This document shows, piece after piece, positions 11,665-19,944 of a stretch of 64,000 bases of DNA. The notes under the pieces were generated by a model. The model did not search any database and had not been told where the DNA came from. It saw only the letters and a program-made list of their open reading frames with translations. This stretch comes from Phycisphaeraceae bacterium (GTDB lineage: Bacteria; Planctomycetota; Phycisphaerae; Phycisphaerales; Phycisphaeraceae). The position numbers were made by a program, and so were the translations under genes. Where the stretch lies: the NCBI GenBank assembly GCA_028277745.1, contig JANQFR010000049.1, positions 62,001 to 126,000 on the forward strand. Reading direction: 5' to 3'. Numbering within the stretch: the first letter of the stretch is position 1; each line of letters begins with the position of its first letter.

Positions 11665-11716
11665 ATTCATATTATACCGTCAATCTGACGCATTCACCAC
11701 CTTGAAAACCGACGGC

Positions 11717-12775
11717 ATGATCACCGAACCCTCCACCACGGCCGAAATCCTGCGGGAAGTCGCGCGCCGCGCCGACGTGTCGGTCAGCACGGTCACGCGG
11801 GTCCTCAACGGCAAGACCCGGGGGGCGTATCCCAAGGTCGCCAAACGCAACCGCCACATCCAGCAGATCGCGGACGAGCTGAACTACCGGCCGAGCTACC
11901 GCGGACGGACGTTCCAATTGGGCAAGACGCTGCACGTCGCCCTGCTGTTCGAGAACGAAAACCCCATGCTCGGCACGACGTATGGGCAGATGATCGAGGG
12001 GGCCGTGCGTCGGCTCCACGCCGACGGGTATCACCTCACTCCCTGGGGATTGACGCCCGCCGACCTGGACCGGACAGACCTGTTCCTCGATCAACGGTTC
12101 GATGGCGTGCTGGTGCACCACCGGATCACCGACACGATGCGCGAGGCCATCAAGCGGGCCGGGTTGCCGGCGGTGGCGCTGAACACCGACGATGACGCCC
12201 TGCCCTGCGTCTGCCCCGACGACCGGCGCGGGGCCCGCGTGCTGACCCAGCACCTGATCGATCTCGGGCACCGCTCCCTGCTGTTTCTCAAGAACCGGTT
12301 CGACCGGCACATGAGCACGCGCGAACGCCTCCGCGGCTTCCGCGACGCGGCGGAACAGGCCGGGTTGAGCGGGGACCGGGCCCGCGTGTGCGAGCCGATC
12401 GAATCCTGGCAAAACCGCGACGCCCCGGCGGTGACCCGGCTGATCGACACGATCTTCCAAGCCACCCGGCCCGCGACGGCGGTGATCTGTTACCGCGGCC
12501 ACGACGCGCTGGGCCTGCACCGGGCCCTGCTTCACCACGGTGTGCGGGCGCCCGAAGACGTGAGCCTGGCCGTGTGCAGCGACGAGTTGTCGATCGACCT
12601 GCACACGCCGGCGATCACGGCGGTCCGCGTGCCGTTCATGGAGATCGGGGCCGAGGCCGCGGGCATCCTATTGCGTCTGATCGCCGGCGACGCGTCGCCG
12701 GCGGGCGCCCGCGTCATGCTGCCCGAGAAACTGATCGTCCGGGAGTCCACTACACCGCCCAAGGCTCAACGCTGA
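11717..12775 (+). CDS. LacI-family transcriptional regulator, locus 1
   Basis: 352 residues from ATG 11717; an in-frame TTG at 11702 is the alternative. The helix-turn-helix is at the N-terminus (EVARRADVSVSTVTRVLNGK) with the hinge ELNYRPSYRGR. A periplasmic-binding-like sugar sensor follows: LHVALLFENEN, FDGVLVHHRI, HLIDLGHRSLLFLKN and a C-terminal core ending in SPAGARVMLPEKLIVRES. It presumably represses or activates the polysaccharide genes on both sides in response to a released sugar. The PEP-CTERM gene starts 106 bases downstream on the same strand. Confidence 0.95.
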   Translation: MITEPSTTAEILREVARRADVSVSTVTRVLNGKTRGAYPKVAKRNRHIQQIADELNYRPSYRGRTFQLGKTLHVALLFENENPMLGTTYGQMIEGAVRRLHADGYHLTPWGLTPADLDRTDLFLDQRFDGVLVHHRITDTMREAIKRAGLPAVALNTDDDALPCVCPDDRRGARVLTQHLIDLGHRSLLFLKNRFDRHMSTRERLRGFRDAAEQAGLSGDRARVCEPIESWQNRDAPAVTRLIDTIFQATRPATAVICYRGHDALGLHRALLHHGVRAPEDVSLAVCSDELSIDLHTPAITAVRVPFMEIGAEAAGILLRLIAGDASPAGARVMLPEKLIVRESTTPPKAQR

Positions 12776-12881
12776 ACCCGGCGCATCGTCGCCGGCCTCG
12801 TTTCTTTTTGACCGTTGCACCGCCCGACGACTCTTCCCCTCGTCTCCCCAACCCGTCCGACCGCCCCAGGAGAACCGAACG

Positions 12882-13601
12882 ATGAGAAAGATATTGACCG
12901 CCATGACGCTGGTGGCGTCTCTGCCCGCGGCGACCGAGGCCGCGGTGATCTACACCCCCGCGCCGCTGACCGCCGACGGCGACGTGCAGAAGAACAACAC
13001 GGCCGCGGGCGGAGGGGCGACCAGCATCGCCGCCACCACGAACACCGTCTCCCGCATCGGACGCCAGAGCGCCCTGGTCAACCGTCATCCGGTCTATGTG
13101 TTCCAATTGCCGTCGTTGGGCGCCGGCGAGGTGATCGACACCGCGAACTTCGAGTTCACGGTGACCGGCGGCCGCGCCGGTGACTACGCGGTCAACGTCG
13201 ACTTGTGGGGCCTGGACTTCCGAGCCTCTTCGGCCATCCTCGCCACAGACCACTTCGCCGGGGCCTCGGACGCCGGCGCCACGCTGATCCAGGACACGAT
13301 CATCGCCTCGGGCGTCGTGTCGACCGGCGCGGTGTCCACCGACGGCGCGGGCGACGCCGCCCTGGCCGACTACCTCCAGGCCCAGTACGACGCGGGCGGG
13401 GCGGGCGGCTTCATCTTCCTCCGCCTGAACAACGACGCGTTCTACGCCACCAACCGCATCGAGACCGGCACGGCCGACAACGCGGACCCCTCGCTCCGCC
13501 CGGTGCTGACCTTCACGACCGTCATCCCCGAGCCGGCGTCGCTCGTGCTGGTCATGTGCGGCGGCCTGTGCCTGCTGGTCCGCGGCCGGCGCGGCGCTTA
13601 G
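12882..13601 (+). CDS. PEP-CTERM sorting-domain protein
   Basis: 239 residues: signal peptide (MRKILTAMTLVASLPAATEAA), a beta-rich Thr/Ala/Gly domain, then V-I-P-E-P-A-S, a hydrophobic stretch and RGRRGA. An AGGAGAA sequence precedes the ATG. The mid-part (VIDTANFEFTVTGG, NVDLWGLDFRA) resembles jelly-roll modules in exported Planctomycete proteins, but I cannot name a family. It lies directly after the LacI gene, the same order seen in loci 2 and 3. Confidence 0.85.
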   Translation: MRKILTAMTLVASLPAATEAAVIYTPAPLTADGDVQKNNTAAGGGATSIAATTNTVSRIGRQSALVNRHPVYVFQLPSLGAGEVIDTANFEFTVTGGRAGDYAVNVDLWGLDFRASSAILATDHFAGASDAGATLIQDTIIASGVVSTGAVSTDGAGDAALADYLQAQYDAGGAGGFIFLRLNNDAFYATNRIETGTADNADPSLRPVLTFTTVIPEPASLVLVMCGGLCLLVRGRRGA

Positions 13602-13654: not shown

Positions 13655-14281
13655 TCACGCCCCGGAGACCGGTCGACCAGAATCACTTGGCGTCGCCGGA
13701 GCGACCAGGCTGCCGTCATCCATTGATTGTGCCGCCAATGCGTCCGGCTCGTGCTCATCGATTTCGTCAAGGCGCCTGAGTACGAGTTCCCGCTTGATGA
13801 TGCCTTGATTCGGATTGAACCAAAGCTGGTCATCGTCGCGGGTCACGACCGGGGCCAGCATGAACTCGCCGTGTTTTTCGTATTCGTCTTTGAACCGGCC
13901 GAGCATGTATGGCGCGTTGCCTAATGCCGGGTGCATCCGACGGACCCGGCCGATCTTCTCCGACCCGTCGCTCTGTTGATCCTCGTGCAGGTAATCGGCG
14001 AAAGATGGAGAGATGCGTACGCTGTAACCGGGGGCTTTTCCTGGCACGTCTCCCTCAATAATCGCAACCCGGAGGTCGTCGTGCTCATCCGCATGACCAA
14101 CCGCTTCGACCCAGGACCGGAACAACCTCACGCCCTGACTCCAATCCCCGAAGACCAGCCCCATGATGGGCGGGCTCTCGCTGGTTGGGCGCCATTGGTA
14201 GGTCGTTGCAATCCATTGAGCAGCTTTCCGCAGCGGGCTGCTGCAGAACTGCCGGGCTGCGATCTCGGTGGGGGTATGCAC
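13655..14281 (-). CDS. Hypothetical protein, 208 residues
   Basis: Starts at GTG 14281 with AGAGGA upstream. It is soluble, with no signal peptide or membrane segment. Readable features are an Arg/Trp-rich N-terminal part (KAAQWIATTYQWRP, GDWSQGVRLFRSWVEAVGHADEHDDLRVAIIEGD) and an acidic C-terminus. I recognise no family. It is first on the toxin/immunity side of locus 1 and oriented with the downstream small genes and the RHS tip, so an immunity or accessory role is possible but unproven. Confidence 0.6.
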   Translation of the reverse strand: MHTPTEIAARQFCSSPLRKAAQWIATTYQWRPTSESPPIMGLVFGDWSQGVRLFRSWVEAVGHADEHDDLRVAIIEGDVPGKAPGYSVRISPSFADYLHEDQQSDGSEKIGRVRRMHPALGNAPYMLGRFKDEYEKHGEFMLAPVVTRDDDQLWFNPNQGIIKRELVLRRLDEIDEHEPDALAAQSMDDGSLVAPATPSDSGRPVSGA

Positions 14282-14306
14282 CTTTTATCCTCTCTGAGCC
14301 GTTTAT

Positions 14307-14540
14307 TCACCTTGAAGTAACATTAAAGTGCGTTATTTCGCCGTTTTTGGAGTCGATATGAACAACGATATTCCCCCCCAGCCAATTCGCGTTGGTCCAC
14401 ACGACAATACTGCGCCAACGTCTACGAACCCATACTGGCTCATCCCAAGACAGGCCCCTTCGATCAACTTCCGCCTTGGCGATTTCCAAGGCTTTTGATT
14501 TTGTAATCCCCGATCTGAACGCACACATCTTGAGCTTCAT
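14307..14540 (-). CDS. Small hypothetical protein, PepSY/immunity-like fold possible
   Basis: 77 residues, ATG 14540. The pattern KSKALEIAKAEVDRRG, then a basic Trp-rich middle, then GGNIVVHIDSKNGEITHF recalls small proteins in which a helix is followed by a beta-sheet ending in V-x-I-D-x-x-x-G-E-I, as in PepSY-like or YrhB/NTF2-type immunity proteins. The local base composition is visibly lower in GC than the surrounding loci. It may be an immunity gene in the RHS-linked cluster; this is inference. Confidence 0.55.
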   Translation of the reverse strand: MKLKMCAFRSGITKSKALEIAKAEVDRRGLSWDEPVWVRRRWRSIVVWTNANWLGGNIVVHIDSKNGEITHFNVTSR

Positions 14541-14639
14541 AACGGAATCAATGGTCCAGCGGCAAAAGCATCTTCTTCATGCGGCGTTGGCTGCTTTATT
14601 GAGGCCGCAAGTCACGGTATTACCATAAGCTCGGATGAG

Positions 14640-15158
14640 TTAAGGCAGAGTCTCAGCCTTTGATGGTTTTGGTTCATTCAGATAATGAAAAACCCCCACC
14701 TCATCGTATGAACCTGTCTGAACGAATGATGGGCCATCCGACAACTGAATCGTAATATGGCCGCGTTGATGTGACAAAACAATCCGATCACTCTCCGCCC
14801 AACTACCTTCCCAATCAGGGTCGACATAGACGTTGGCAAGACCAACGCACTTGTCGTTTTCGTCAACGAGCACGATTTTAGAGGACCCGTGTGGACTGCC
14901 GGTTGCAGAACTGGACCATAAATAGGTCGCGCCATGAACAGCATAGGTCTCGCCGTCCAGCGTAACATCACCCAGTTTTGCGGCTTTGATAAGATTTATT
15001 TCCGTGGGCAAAATCGCCGGGCCATATTCTTGAAAAAGGCATCGAAGGACTTCAGAATCACTATTTGTCAGTGTTTGGCGGGCGCACCCGCTAAGCAGCA
15101 AGCACAAAATTAACCAAGGCGCGCCATTACCTCGAAGTTTGAAAATTAAATACTTCAT
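14640..15158 (-). CDS. Small lipoprotein, hypothetical
   Basis: 172 residues from ATG 15158 (MKYLIFKLRGN). The lipobox LLLSGC gives lipid attachment at the Cys after a short hydrophobic helix. The mature part has a beta-type region (YAVHGATYLWSSSATG, SSKIVLVDENDKCVGLANVYVD) and ends with a Lys/Glu tail. No family recognised. Same strand and same lower-GC patch as the neighbouring small genes and the RHS tip; a surface immunity lipoprotein is one possibility. Confidence 0.6.
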   Translation of the reverse strand: MKYLIFKLRGNGAPWLILCLLLSGCARQTLTNSDSEVLRCLFQEYGPAILPTEINLIKAAKLGDVTLDGETYAVHGATYLWSSSATGSPHGSSKIVLVDENDKCVGLANVYVDPDWEGSWAESDRIVLSHQRGHITIQLSDGPSFVQTGSYDEVGVFHYLNEPKPSKAETLP

Positions 15159-15278
15159 CTTTGTAAACAGTGTAAGTGCTGGTAGTGCGATGCGCCCGGT
15201 CACTGGGCTTCGGCCCAGAGCAGTCTTGTGCGGAAATGATGTGCCATGCTCTGGGAGGAGTTGTCGGCATGACGTCTC

Positions 15279-15563
15279 TTATAGCACCATGCGCATACCG
15301 AACGCAATTGCAACGACAACCAAGGCTAAAGTGACACACATCGCACAGTTTAGTATGTAGAACGGGATCGCAGGCTCGCCGACGTTAGGGTCTGGACCTC
15401 GTATTAGCACCGCAAGACAACCGGGTATGGCGCCAATCAAGGTGATAGCGATAAATGCACTAACCCCGATGTTTATCATTTGCACCGTCATAAAGAAGGC
15501 GCAAAGCAATGAGCTTGCAAGCGTCACGCCTAAGGATTCGATGTCATAAGTGGGCCATTTCAT
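15279..15563 (-). CDS. Small integral membrane protein
   Basis: 94 residues with three predicted membrane segments (about 10-30, 35-55 and 68-90). There is no signal peptide beyond the first helix and no catalytic motif. It starts 26 bases after the stop of the RHS-tip gene on the same strand, the usual position of a cognate immunity gene; a membrane-embedded immunity protein would fit a membrane-acting or periplasmic toxin. The assignment rests on position only. Confidence 0.6.
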   Translation of the reverse strand: MKWPTYDIESLGVTLASSLLCAFFMTVQMINIGVSAFIAITLIGAIPGCLAVLIRGPDPNVGEPAIPFYILNCAMCVTLALVVVAIAFGMRMVL

Positions 15564-15589
15564 CGCAACGCAAAAATGCCTTAGTCACT

Positions 15590-16606
15590 TTAGTTCAGAA
15601 GCCATTCCATGGCGCCCTCAACAGCGCGTGGAAGACCATACTCCAAACCGGTAATTCTTGCTACAACCCGCGCATTTGCCTGGACGGTCTGCAACGTACC
15701 GCCCGGAACGATCGTTGCCGACCAGACGACAATCTGATTGCCGCTCCGCGTAAAACCAACCATCTTAATATTGCCGGGCTGGATACTCTTGAACTGGCCT
15801 AGGACGCGTTTGAGCCCGGAATACCAACCAGCGACTGGATGACGCGCAAACAGCTTTGCCGCTTGGCCCGTCCATGTCACTATACCGCTCCCTGTCGCCT
15901 TCGAAGGCAGAGTACGCCAGATTGACGCATTCGCCGAAGCCATTCCATACACTGCGCCCTCGGTTCTTGCGATGTATGTGCCAGACTCCGCAATCTTTGG
16001 AATTGCTTGGCCTGGCACACGTGTGAACACAACTTCAGCGCCCTCGGAAGCCGCCACTTTCCCTAACGCTCGGAGTACAGAAGTTGCAAGAGCTTTGACA
16101 AGGAAGACGTCTGAAACAGCTATCGCTGTCCAGATTACACCCAAGCCGATGTTACCTTCTTGAAAGTTGTATAACACCTCCCAGCCTGAACCGACTATCG
16201 GCACTAATGACCACCAGCCCGGCTTGGGAATTGGGCCACTTGGACCGGTGCTCGTCTGTGCGAACGGATTTGCCCCTGGCGGGCGTCGTGGCGCGACAGC
16301 GAATAGTGAGTTCAACGATGAGAGTAGAATGCTCGTATTTGTCAGTCCGAGCGTTATGGCAAACTGCCCCGATGGGTCCACACGCATTACACTGTTAGCT
16401 TCTGCGTACAGGTATTTATGTAGTGAGAGCGGCTTCTGCGTGTTCCCCGAGAACGGGTCCAGCCGGTTGAATCGGCCCGTGCCCGGTTCGTAGTACCGGA
16501 TGTGCAGCATGCCCGCGGCTTCGAGCCGGTTGAGCAGTTGACCGGATGTGCAATCACTCAGGTCGATCGATGATGAGATTGGCGTTCTCGTCTCGCATAG
16601 AAGCAT
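15590..16606 (-). CDS. Orphan RHS C-terminal tip (RHS core remnant plus variable toxin-like domain)
   Basis: 338 residues. Residues 33-82 are a clear RHS-repeat-associated core end (LHIRYYEPGTGRFNRLDPF, then HKYLYAEANSVMRVDPSG). A hydrophobic pre-toxin segment follows (VPIVGSGWEVLYNFQEGNIG, SDVFLVKALATSVLRALG), then a variable C-terminal domain (about 195-338) with no motif I recognise. The N-terminal RHS cage, secretion signal and most YD repeats are missing. The ORF overlaps the end of the preceding transglutaminase-like pseudogene, so it may lack its own translation signals. This is either a displaced orphan toxin cassette, as in RHS/CDI loci, or a decayed gene. A candidate membrane immunity gene follows. 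Confidence 0.75.
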   Translation of the reverse strand: MLLCETRTPISSSIDLSDCTSGQLLNRLEAAGMLHIRYYEPGTGRFNRLDPFSGNTQKPLSLHKYLYAEANSVMRVDPSGQFAITLGLTNTSILLSSLNSLFAVAPRRPPGANPFAQTSTGPSGPIPKPGWWSLVPIVGSGWEVLYNFQEGNIGLGVIWTAIAVSDVFLVKALATSVLRALGKVAASEGAEVVFTRVPGQAIPKIAESGTYIARTEGAVYGMASANASIWRTLPSKATGSGIVTWTGQAAKLFARHPVAGWYSGLKRVLGQFKSIQPGNIKMVGFTRSGNQIVVWSATIVPGGTLQTVQANARVVARITGLEYGLPRAVEGAMEWLLN

Positions 16607-18032
16607 AAGGATCTACCTCCGGTTCAGGCGGGTTCTTGAAGATCAAATCGTAAGATGGTTTGATGCGCGTGCCGGCGCAGGTCTGGTTGACGATGTGCTG
16701 CACGATATCGCCGATGTTGGTGGGTGAGGGGCCGAAGGCCGAGAAAGGCCCACCGGTGGTGGGCCCTGGTTGGGCGGGGCTTTGAGGTTGGACATCGGGC
16801 CAATGGAAAGGCTGGCCGGACACCGAAACGCTGGGCGTCGTCGGATTGTGCCCGTTGTTTCCGGGGCCGGCCGGCTTTGGCGGGGCAAACTTCACAACCG
16901 GATCAACGGGTGTGGGGTCGTGCTGTGGGTGGAACGGGACCGCCGGAGCAGGCAAAGCGAACGACCCCGGCGCGGGCGTCGGCCAACAGCCCCCTTTAGC
17001 GAGGGCTTCGGCGACGGCCATGTTGCCGCGCTGAATGAACCACCTTCGCACGTCGTCGGGCTCGAACCCCGTCGATCGCATGATCTTCTCGGCCTTGTTC
17101 CGAAGCGACCTCCGCATGAAGTGGGCGTATCCGCCGTAGCGCGGATCGAGTTGACTGGCGTGATGGTAAGCGTTCGCGGATTCCGTGTACCGGCCGATCG
17201 CGTCGAGGCAGACCGCCCGCTCACCGAGACAATGGGCAAGTTCAGCTGCGGGGGTGAAGCTGTAGAGGAATTGACAGGCGGGGTCGCGTCGGCGGTGTTG
17301 CTCACGCTGCCAGTTGGGCCATTTGACGGGGAAGTCGAAGTAATGATCATCGTCAAACAGGCTCAGGCCGCCGTGGAACTCGATGTTAAAGTAGCCGCGG
17401 TAGTTCGGGCGCGGGTGCCGGGGGGCGTCCCATCGGCTGAACGAGTGGCCGGGGGCGCGGGAGAGGAACATCGGGTACCCGAGCCGCCGGCCGATGGCGA
17501 CCATGAGCGTCGGGAGCGAAGCGCAGGTGCCCCGGCGGCGTGGACCGATGAGCCCGTGGATCAGCAGGTCCTACGAATCGGTCCAGTCGGGGTCGGCGTC
17601 AATCCGGGCCTCGTGGTACTGGACCCCGTACTCTTTGAAAAGTGTCTTGGAGATACATAGCAAGCGCCAAAGCGGTTCGCTGTTTTCAAACGTGGCCGGG
17701 TCGTTGCGGAATACATGCAGGTGTCCGTCGGTCAGGCGTGCGATCCTTGTCGACCAACAATCAAGAGTGCGGACGTGGCTCTCGACATCCAGTTGCTCAG
17801 CCCCCGGCAACCCCTCGGCGCAAAGCAGGTTCATCCGGGCGACGTCGCATCGGACGATGTGCTCTGGAGGGACTTGTAACAATTCCGCCAGAGAACGTGG
17901 AGCGATGTCGCATCGCCTATGAAAATCGTTCGCGCCAATCGATCCCCCGCTTCGTTTGGCTTGCCGCCTTGCCAGTGCTGCTTCGTGTCGCCGCCTGGAC
18001 CGAATTGATAATGAACAAGTCCCCTGATTCAC
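16554..18032 (-). pseudogene. Transglutaminase-like/TPR-type protein gene interrupted by in-frame TAG
   Basis: The two halves lie in one frame: 18032 (possible GTG) to the TAG at 17573-17571, and on to 16554. The first half has RRCDIAPRSLAELLQVPPEHI and ARMNLLCAEGLPGAE. Right after the stop the frame continues DLLIHGLIGPRRRGTCASLP then MVAIGRRLGYPM, which includes the Cys (in GTCAS) and the following His/Asp region (APGHSFSRWD) of a transglutaminase-like fold. A TPR-like region (AVCLDAIGRYTESANAYHHASQLDPRYG, in two parts) and a Pro-rich tail follow. A separate restart at 17504 would lose the catalytic Cys, so the gene looks inactivated by a single nonsense change unless the amber is read through. 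The true start is uncertain (frame open to 18077). Confidence 0.8.
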
Positions 18033-18086
18033 GGAATAACCCCGGCTGGGCTCGCCAAGTGGAAGGCGAGCGGTCACTGAATCAGG
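18023..18086. repeat. Nested inverted repeat, possible terminator
   Basis: Outer arms CCTGATTCA (18023-18031) and TGAATCAGG (18078-18086) enclose an inner CTCGCC/GGCGAG hairpin at about 18051-18070. It sits downstream of the GH43-like gene and at the disputed start of the transglutaminase-like pseudogene. It could terminate the former or be a small dispersed repeat. No strong T-run follows it. Confidence 0.5.
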
Positions 18087-18159: not shown

Positions 18160-19944
18160 TCACGCCGTGCGCGGGCGTCGCCGCACGAAGGTTGCCGCGG
18201 TCCACAGGCCGAGGAGCACCGCGGCGCTGGCGGGTTCGGGGATGGGGGTGACGGCGGTGACGAGGCCGAACAACTCCACGTCGTCGATCACCGTGTCGCG
18301 GCCGGGGCCGGGCACGTCGAAGGTGATCTCGATCAGCACCGAACCGGTCAGGCCGGAGATCTGATCGACGTTCTCGCCGGTGATCTCGAGGTAGACATCA
18401 TCATCGCCGCCGTTGGTGAAGACGTCGCCGAACACCTCGCCGTTGACGCGGACCTGGCCGAGGTGGTTAGGCTGATCGGCCATCAACCGGAGCGTGAAGC
18501 CGGTCAGCGCGAGGGTCTGGCCATCCTCGACCTCGAGGGTGAAGGAGAAGACCTGGGGGTCGGCGTCGTCGTTACGGAAGCCGCCTGAATCGAACCGCGT
18601 GTTGCCGTTGCCCGCAAGCGAGCTGGCGGATACGCCGTCCGCGGTGCTCGTCGCGGCCAGCACGCCGTCGACCGCGTAGTTGACGATGGAGACGGGGTCG
18701 GTCACGGGGGGATCGACGCCCGGATCGGAGGCGCTGAACAGTTCCGCGACGGCGATGCCGTACTCGCCCGCCACGCTGTAGTAGAGGAACTCCCGCCCGC
18801 TGATGGGGTCGAAGAAGTAGGCCGGGTCCCGCAGTTCATTGACCTGGCCCGTCGCGGTCGATCCGGGGACTTTGGGCCGGCCGCCGGTGCTGGGGATCAG
18901 GTCCAGGTTGGCGCCCTCATAGTCGAACTCGGGCCGAAGCACCTCCCGGACGTCGGTCACGGTCCACTGGGTCCAGTCGTCGCCGAGCGCGACCGTCGCC
19001 TCGTAAATCCGTTCGGGCGCCTCAGCCTTGGCGGTGTACCACCAGCTGAGCTTGTCGTTGGCCTCGTCGACCTTCACGGCGTTGTGGCGGAACACCACGT
19101 TGCCCTTCGCGTCGTTGTTCGGATCGTCGGCCCAGGTGTCGGGGTCGGCGGCCAGGGCCCGGAGGCTGTCGCGGAGTTCTTTGTTAAACGGCGCGTCTTG
19201 CCAATCGCCGTTGGTGTAAGGATTGGCCTGGTCGGTCGGCCGGACCTGCACGCCGTTCATGGCCAGACCGTATTTCAGGCCTTTGTATTCGAACTCGCGC
19301 AGGTAGGAGCCGTTGATCTCCGACCCGACGCCGTATTGCGTGTCGTTGAAGCTCAGGCCGTCGCTGCTGTAGGCCACGAACGTGCGTTGGTTGTTGCTTT
19401 TTTTCCACGAGCCGTCGGCCTGCTTGGTGAAGCGGTTGCCGTGGTAACTCATATTGAACAGGCCGGTGTCGGCGTCGAACGTGATGTCGGGCGAGGCGAT
19501 GTGGTCGCCCACGCCCAGCTCCGGGCCGATCGTGAGGACGCGGTTGCCGCCGGCGGCGAAGGTGTTGTTGCCGTTGAGGCTCAGCACGCCGGTGTTGGGC
19601 TGATAGAGCGTGAAAGGCCCTACGGGCGAGTCGCCGTAGGCCATCCGGATGTGATCCCCGCCGTGGTCGGCGAAGTAGAGGTAATAGTCGGCCAGCTTGT
19701 TCGGCGTGCCGTCGGGGATGTAGATCATCGACGGGCCGTTGATGCTGTCCGAGGCCGTGATCGTCTCGCCCGCGGCGGTCAGGTCACCGAAGGTGATCAC
19801 GCGGTTGTCAAACGCGTTGGGGTCGCGTACGTCGAGGCGCTGCACGTCGTGCTGCGCGAGAGCCTGAGCCGGGGCTGCGCCGCACAGGGCGATCAGGACA
19901 AGTTGTCGGACCATGCGGCGCTTCGAGGTATGAGCGGTGAGCAT
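18160..19944 (-). CDS. GH43/GH117-like five-bladed propeller PEP-CTERM protein
   Basis: 594 residues with signal peptide (VRQLVLIALCGAAPAQALA). Residues 60-420 look like a GH43/GH117-type propeller: GPSMIYIPDG, YYLYFADHGGDHIRMAYGDS, HIASPDITFDADTGLFNMSY and ELRDPAYFFDP, where the early and middle Asp residues would be catalytic candidates. A C-terminal beta-sandwich (about 435-565) resembles a carbohydrate-binding module, then I-P-E-P-A-S plus hydrophobic and RRRPRTA. The likely job is exo-type cleavage of an extracellular galactan or arabinan-like glycan. It is last gene of a LacI-led run. Confidence 0.8.
   Translation of the reverse strand: MLTAHTSKRRMVRQLVLIALCGAAPAQALAQHDVQRLDVRDPNAFDNRVITFGDLTAAGETITASDSINGPSMIYIPDGTPNKLADYYLYFADHGGDHIRMAYGDSPVGPFTLYQPNTGVLSLNGNNTFAAGGNRVLTIGPELGVGDHIASPDITFDADTGLFNMSYHGNRFTKQADGSWKKSNNQRTFVAYSSDGLSFNDTQYGVGSEINGSYLREFEYKGLKYGLAMNGVQVRPTDQANPYTNGDWQDAPFNKELRDSLRALAADPDTWADDPNNDAKGNVVFRHNAVKVDEANDKLSWWYTAKAEAPERIYEATVALGDDWTQWTVTDVREVLRPEFDYEGANLDLIPSTGGRPKVPGSTATGQVNELRDPAYFFDPISGREFLYYSVAGEYGIAVAELFSASDPGVDPPVTDPVSIVNYAVDGVLAATSTADGVSASSLAGNGNTRFDSGGFRNDDADPQVFSFTLEVEDGQTLALTGFTLRLMADQPNHLGQVRVNGEVFGDVFTNGGDDDVYLEITGENVDQISGLTGSVLIEITFDVPGPGRDTVIDDVELFGLVTAVTPIPEPASAAVLLGLWTAATFVRRRPRTA

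Follow-up and report, generated by a model that had tools for sequence, protein, structure and literature searches.

In the general view, an RHS toxin depends on its large protein shell both for holding the toxin and for delivering it. Among the described systems closest to the locus reported here are the orphan rhs-CT/immunity modules of enterobacteria, which consist of a truncated RHS C-terminus, a variable toxin and an adjacent small immunity gene (PMC3150448, PMC3967940), and the polymorphic RHS toxins with an inactive transglutaminase domain at the N-terminus, in which at least one catalytic residue has been lost (Zhang et al. 2012, PMC3482391).

The locus lies within a window of 64,000 nucleotides, the whole stretch of DNA analysed, from a Phycisphaeraceae bacterium. 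It centres on a gene for a stand-alone RHS tip, with a transglutaminase-like gene (TGL) upstream and four small genes downstream (Table 1). A truncated RHS C-terminus, a variable toxin domain and an adjacent small candidate immunity gene are common to this locus and to the enterobacterial modules; the upstream partner is a full RHS gene there and TGL here, and the pair found here recurs across the phylum, with many copies carrying their own signal peptide. As in the toxins described by Zhang et al., a transglutaminase-fold module accompanies RHS toxins, with a signal peptide or transmembrane (TM) helix close by, and C-termini are variable; there, however, the module is fused N-terminally to an RHS repeat array, whereas here it is a separate gene and no array is present, and, unlike in the inactive domains, Cys and His are invariant in TGL (PMC3482391). 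The full-length RHS effector WapA (PMC12704120) and the T6SS effector Tse15 (PMC11461821) likewise combine a core stub and a variable toxin with an immunity gene next to them, but the RHS shell that encapsulates the toxin in those effectors is absent here. Of the features that define RHS toxins, the cassette has the core stub and the interchangeable C-terminus, and lacks the repeat shell.

The window locus probably belongs to a recurring type of polymorphic-toxin cassette, one with a shell-less RHS tip. Such a cassette would comprise, in order, a conserved TGL, the shell-less tip gene, interchangeable immunity genes and a conserved last gene (ORF5). This suggests that bacteria employ the tips of RHS toxins even where the usual shell is missing; if so, the pair of stub and TGL would be an alternative mode of deploying these exchangeable tips, and a TGL next to a stub could serve as a marker for new toxin and immunity families in little-known phyla. 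In the literature searched, most subscription journals lying outside it, nothing was found on a TGL gene that pairs with RHS tips lacking the shell, and the gene set is apparently undescribed so far.

Table 1. Features of the cassette in the window (positions in the window; aa, amino acids)
Feature	Position	Strand	Basis or remark
TGL, N-terminal half, Transglut_core2-like	17571..18077	-	TGL HMM 133.7 bits; true start uncertain
TGL, C-terminal half, TPR-like with Pro-rich tail	16554..17504	-	TGL HMM 135.3 bits; weak TPR_2
Stand-alone RHS tip gene, 338 aa	15590..16606	-	intact ORF
RHS-core stub, residues 34-81, ...GRFNRLDP...DPSG	16364..16507	-	TIGR03696, 2.1e-9
C-terminal domain (CT), putative toxin, residues 195-338	15593..16024	-	relatives end RHS proteins L104 and L105
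94-aa protein, 3 predicted TM segments	15279..15563	-	hydropathy; 26 bp after tip
Lipoprotein, lipobox LLSGC	14640..15158	-	ORF to 15203; ATG 15158 is the better start
77-aa PepSY / Imm-NTF2-2-like protein	14307..14540	-	weak Pfam matches (0.012 and 0.03), below cutoff
ORF5, conserved cassette-end gene, 208 aa	13655..14281	-	42-54% identical in 4/4 sister cassettes

Anatomy of the tip gene

The original prediction described a 338-residue protein followed by four genes, and all five ORFs were confirmed at their positions, closely packed on the minus strand. A GGAGGT motif is found 8 nt 5′ of the ATG of the tip gene, within the 3′ end of the preceding TGL gene, with which the tip gene overlaps by 53 bp. 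The encoded protein features a short leader, the RHS-core stub, a hydrophobic linker without relatives among the fetched loci, and then the putative toxin domain. The match of the stub to TIGR03696 (Rhs_assc_core) is above cutoff (37.7 bits against 32.5) and extends over 48 residues directly before the variable C-terminus, and stubs of sister cassettes are 41-58% identical to it. The prediction that the protein starts inside an RHS core thus holds for the end of that core, and YD repeats are missing: the 338-aa ORF contains no YD/RHS repeat array, and the gene upstream is TGL.

The C-terminal domain, also correctly predicted to be unlike any recognised family, gave no match in Pfam, NCBIfam, PADLOC or PDB sequences, and AlphaFold2 (AF2) run on three sequences of it yielded no usable model (pLDDT 36). 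The original prediction proposed looking for the same C-terminus on full RHS proteins in related genomes; it was found on RHS proteins of other phyla. A pattern scan of one genome per species (84,980 species) detected two relatives sharing the motif TEGAVYGM...G.AA..F..H.V.G..SG.K..LGQ.K with the window copy. The first (L104, 39% identity) comes from an Akkermansia metagenome-assembled genome (MAG); it is an RHS protein, incomplete because its gene runs off the contig, that terminates in this domain, and a 75-aa protein with several hydrophobic segments begins 3 bp 3′ of its gene. The second is a 2001-aa full RHS protein from a Bradymonadales MAG with the domain at its end (L105, 32%); no clear small membrane-protein gene was seen behind it. 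The domain is absent from 392 genomes of the phylum, the window genome aside, from the 284 and 289 genomes searched in the other two phyla, apart from those that carry L104 and L105, and from the plasmids, phages and viral contigs searched, so that the family is rare, with three examples including the window copy. It is a genuine RHS C-terminal domain carried also by RHS proteins of two other phyla, and a candidate for a new toxin domain. Its presence on RHS proteins, together with the small membrane-protein gene after L104, supports the toxin-immunity reading.

Recurrence of the cassette

Searched for on its own, independently of the tip, TGL yielded 18 strong loci from 13 genomes, of which three are in the window genome, two each in G060, G041 and G071, and one each in G057, G030, G053, G034, G036, G314, G257, G197 and G311. 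A stand-alone RHS tip adjoins TGL on the same strand in all 18, compared with none of five control loci with weaker TGL-like genes. In 15 of the 18, TGL comes before the tip, overlapping it or within about 30 bp, and the order in L096, L097 and L098 is tip, small gene, TGL. A signal peptide precedes the stub in 11 of the 18 loci, and the TGLs of nine of these 11 carry an N-terminal TM helix (the call is borderline in L095), versus none of the TGLs in the seven loci with tips lacking a signal peptide, i.e. those of the window type together with L093 and L094 (hypergeometric 0.001). Neither a signal peptide on the tip nor a TM helix on TGL is present in the window type. The existence of this exported form, in which a tip with a signal peptide mostly goes with a membrane-anchored TGL, suggests that the two work as a unit.

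Pairwise BLASTP comparison of the C-termini of 16 tips gave nothing below E 0.01, and TGL and stub are conserved; C-termini are interchangeable between members on this evidence and on that of the window domain on RHS proteins of other phyla. One C-terminus, in L042, is a transglutaminase (PF20085, protein-glutamine gamma-glutamyltransferase, 7.7e-25). Below cutoff are a peptidase C25-like match on the second tip of L043 (7e-4), a match to an EC869-type CDI nuclease in L024 (0.0097) and a Zn-phospholipase-C-like match in L096 (0.01); in L098, a metalloprotease-like sequence, HEFMH, was recognised by eye. In L016, a tandem pair of paralogs coding for 268 and 275 aa lies right 3′ of the toxin tip (L016:7684-9346); these probably arose by duplication of an immunity gene and would form a new family. 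Anatomy, linkage, conservation and variability are observed properties of the cassette.

The original prediction likened the window locus to displaced toxin tips with their immunity genes. A classical displaced tip, as in enterobacterial rhs loci, would be the replaced C-terminus of a full RHS gene, left with its immunity gene and able to recombine back. The window stub does closely resemble RHS proteins of relatives, among them giant ones (protein identity about 42-56%, DNA identity about 76% over 60 nt), and tips stand behind full RHS genes in relatives, as at G057:C1:4576981 and G041:C54:46198. Displaced tips in enterobacteria, however, stand behind a complete RHS gene whose core is homologous, and the window locus is not arranged in this way: neither an RHS gene nor a YD-repeat remnant lies upstream, and TGL occupies that place in this and 17 other loci. 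The stub matches the genome's own RHS C-termini (C84, C66) over at most 24-26 nt, too little for ready recombination, and the giant RHS genes in G057 and G030 have no member of the TGL family next to them. Displacement of this kind is therefore unlikely, and since the tip belongs to a recurrent cassette of TGL and tip, "displaced tip" is not its best description.

Giant RHS frames of about 7503, 7756 and 4419 aa occur at G057:C1:4574987 (L010), G030:C1:3802801 (L007) and G041:C54:42240 (L012), and the separate tip genes found behind some of them have the classical displaced-tip layout. The two full RHS C-termini of the window genome (G000:C84 and G000:C66; L018 and L051) are at contig ends, where RHS repeats probably broke the assembly. 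A small gene follows each, coding for 87 aa and for a 138-aa membrane protein, respectively. Two further side observations concern the tips of the cassette: the L016 tip has a possible PD-(D/E)xK-like end, and at L042:5314-6315 a signal-peptide RHS tip with a transglutaminase C-terminus adjoins the transglutaminase-like cassette gene.

The transglutaminase-like gene

In the window, TGL is split upstream of its conserved Cys by an in-frame TAG (17571-17573). The two ORFs are halves of one gene, as a tblastn alignment with an intact 417-aa paralog from the same genome (L016:10246-11499) reads through the TAG (35% over 292 aa, 2e-48). The split window gene is itself below the cutoff of PF13369 (Transglut_core2; 23.5), yet it is a homolog of the L016 gene, which is above it (26.0 bits), as are those of L022 (30.1) and L097 (65.1). 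No TGL relatives were found in plasmids or viral contigs. Residues C164 and H190 are invariant in nine aligned TGL sequences, and an invariant N-x-E follows; conservation of the Cys and His makes an enzymatic role on the tip plausible.

In-frame stops are also present in two of four sister TGLs, TGA in L017 (10937 region, G000:C6) and TAG in L024 (8534 region, G057:C1), both at the same conserved Trp of an RWD motif. A shared position in TGLs of different genera may be due to chance at a TGG codon, or may have been selected; alternatively, stops in MAG copies of TGL may be sequencing errors. Taken together, the TAG in the window and the stops in the two sisters indicate that this subtype may be able to do without TGL or may be losing it. 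They would also fit an old cassette losing its function as a whole, in which TGL has already become a pseudogene and the tip and immunity genes are on the way there. Against such general decay, the reading frames of the tip and of the four genes after it are intact, a strong ribosome site precedes the tip, and dN/dS for the TGL paralogs of L016 and L017 comes to about 0.17 on either side of the L017 stop, so that this stop is recent or tolerated and any decay recent. We consider this explanation improbable.

In the recurrent toxin cassette that we favour, the toxicity of the tip, its pairing with immunity genes, its delivery and the action of TGL are what we infer from these arrangements. TGL would handle the tip by cleaving, linking or holding it. 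A more specific proposal, which we put forward tentatively and to which we give rather less than even weight, is a two-component system in which a dedicated TGL, anchored in the membrane in most exported pairs, would process, cross-link or present a shell-less tip exported by Sec, the window copy being a cytosolic derivative. The window version, with export signals absent and its own TGL broken, could hold toxin and immunity genes that persist as an orphan pair, or a toxin released by a novel route; the putative toxin domain itself belongs to a rare, uncharacterised family carried also by full RHS proteins in other phyla.

Downstream genes and surroundings

As predicted, the tip is followed by a small membrane protein, with three hydrophobic segments, a lipoprotein, with its lipobox, and two small proteins. 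The immunity role would fall first to the 94-aa membrane protein, which is the likeliest candidate, a small membrane protein also following the same domain in L104; protection by a protein in the membrane would suit a toxin that acts on the inner membrane or crosses it. The lipoprotein is a possible second immunity protein and the 77-aa protein a possible further one. The 94-aa and 77-aa genes have no relatives in 60 related genomes, where the lipoprotein has a single weak one, in G030 (E 0.003), that is not beside a tip. Among the fetched loci, too, the three middle genes have no relatives beyond this weak match. Such a lack of counterparts is the expectation for toxin-specific immunity genes.

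ORF5 is different. Its family comes last in all five window-type cassettes, in which the genes between tip and ORF5 differ, and relatives occur without RHS or TGL in three loci (G000:C7, G394 and, as a longer fusion, G333). It is not, therefore, the private immunity gene of this toxin, and may be a general conflict-locus gene; AF2 on five sequences gave no usable model (pLDDT 43). The original prediction of a line of small possible immunity genes accordingly stands for the three middle genes and not for the conserved 208-aa ORF5. Conservation of immunity-type neighbours without RHS genes, which it had named as evidence to the contrary, was likewise found for ORF5 only and not for the other three. 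The copy of ORF5 in G000:C7 (L090, G000:C7:45097-45669) is the fourth in the window genome, and lies behind a 275-aa gene with no RHS or TGL.

The occurrence of ORF5 relatives without RHS could also be taken to mean that the small genes have nothing to do with the tip, and that the tip is a secreted or structural fragment without toxicity. This is very improbable given the swappable C-termini, enzyme domains among them, the tandem paralogs of L016 and the sharing of the window domain with full RHS proteins.

A lower-GC patch had been noted here and is confirmed (0.48-0.55, with surroundings at about 0.66-0.70). GC content is lowest in the 94-aa, lipoprotein and 77-aa genes (0.48-0.49), followed by the toxin domain (0.55), and is nearer to the genome in TGL (0.59-0.63) and ORF5 (0.61). 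A search for flanking repeats of mobile elements returned short imperfect matches only, and promoter and terminator predictions at the locus were at chance level. The cassette is flanked by a LacI-type regulator with a PEP-CTERM protein (11702-13601, plus strand) and by a PEP-CTERM-like secreted protein (18160-19944, minus strand), in an otherwise ordinary neighbourhood of carbohydrate type.
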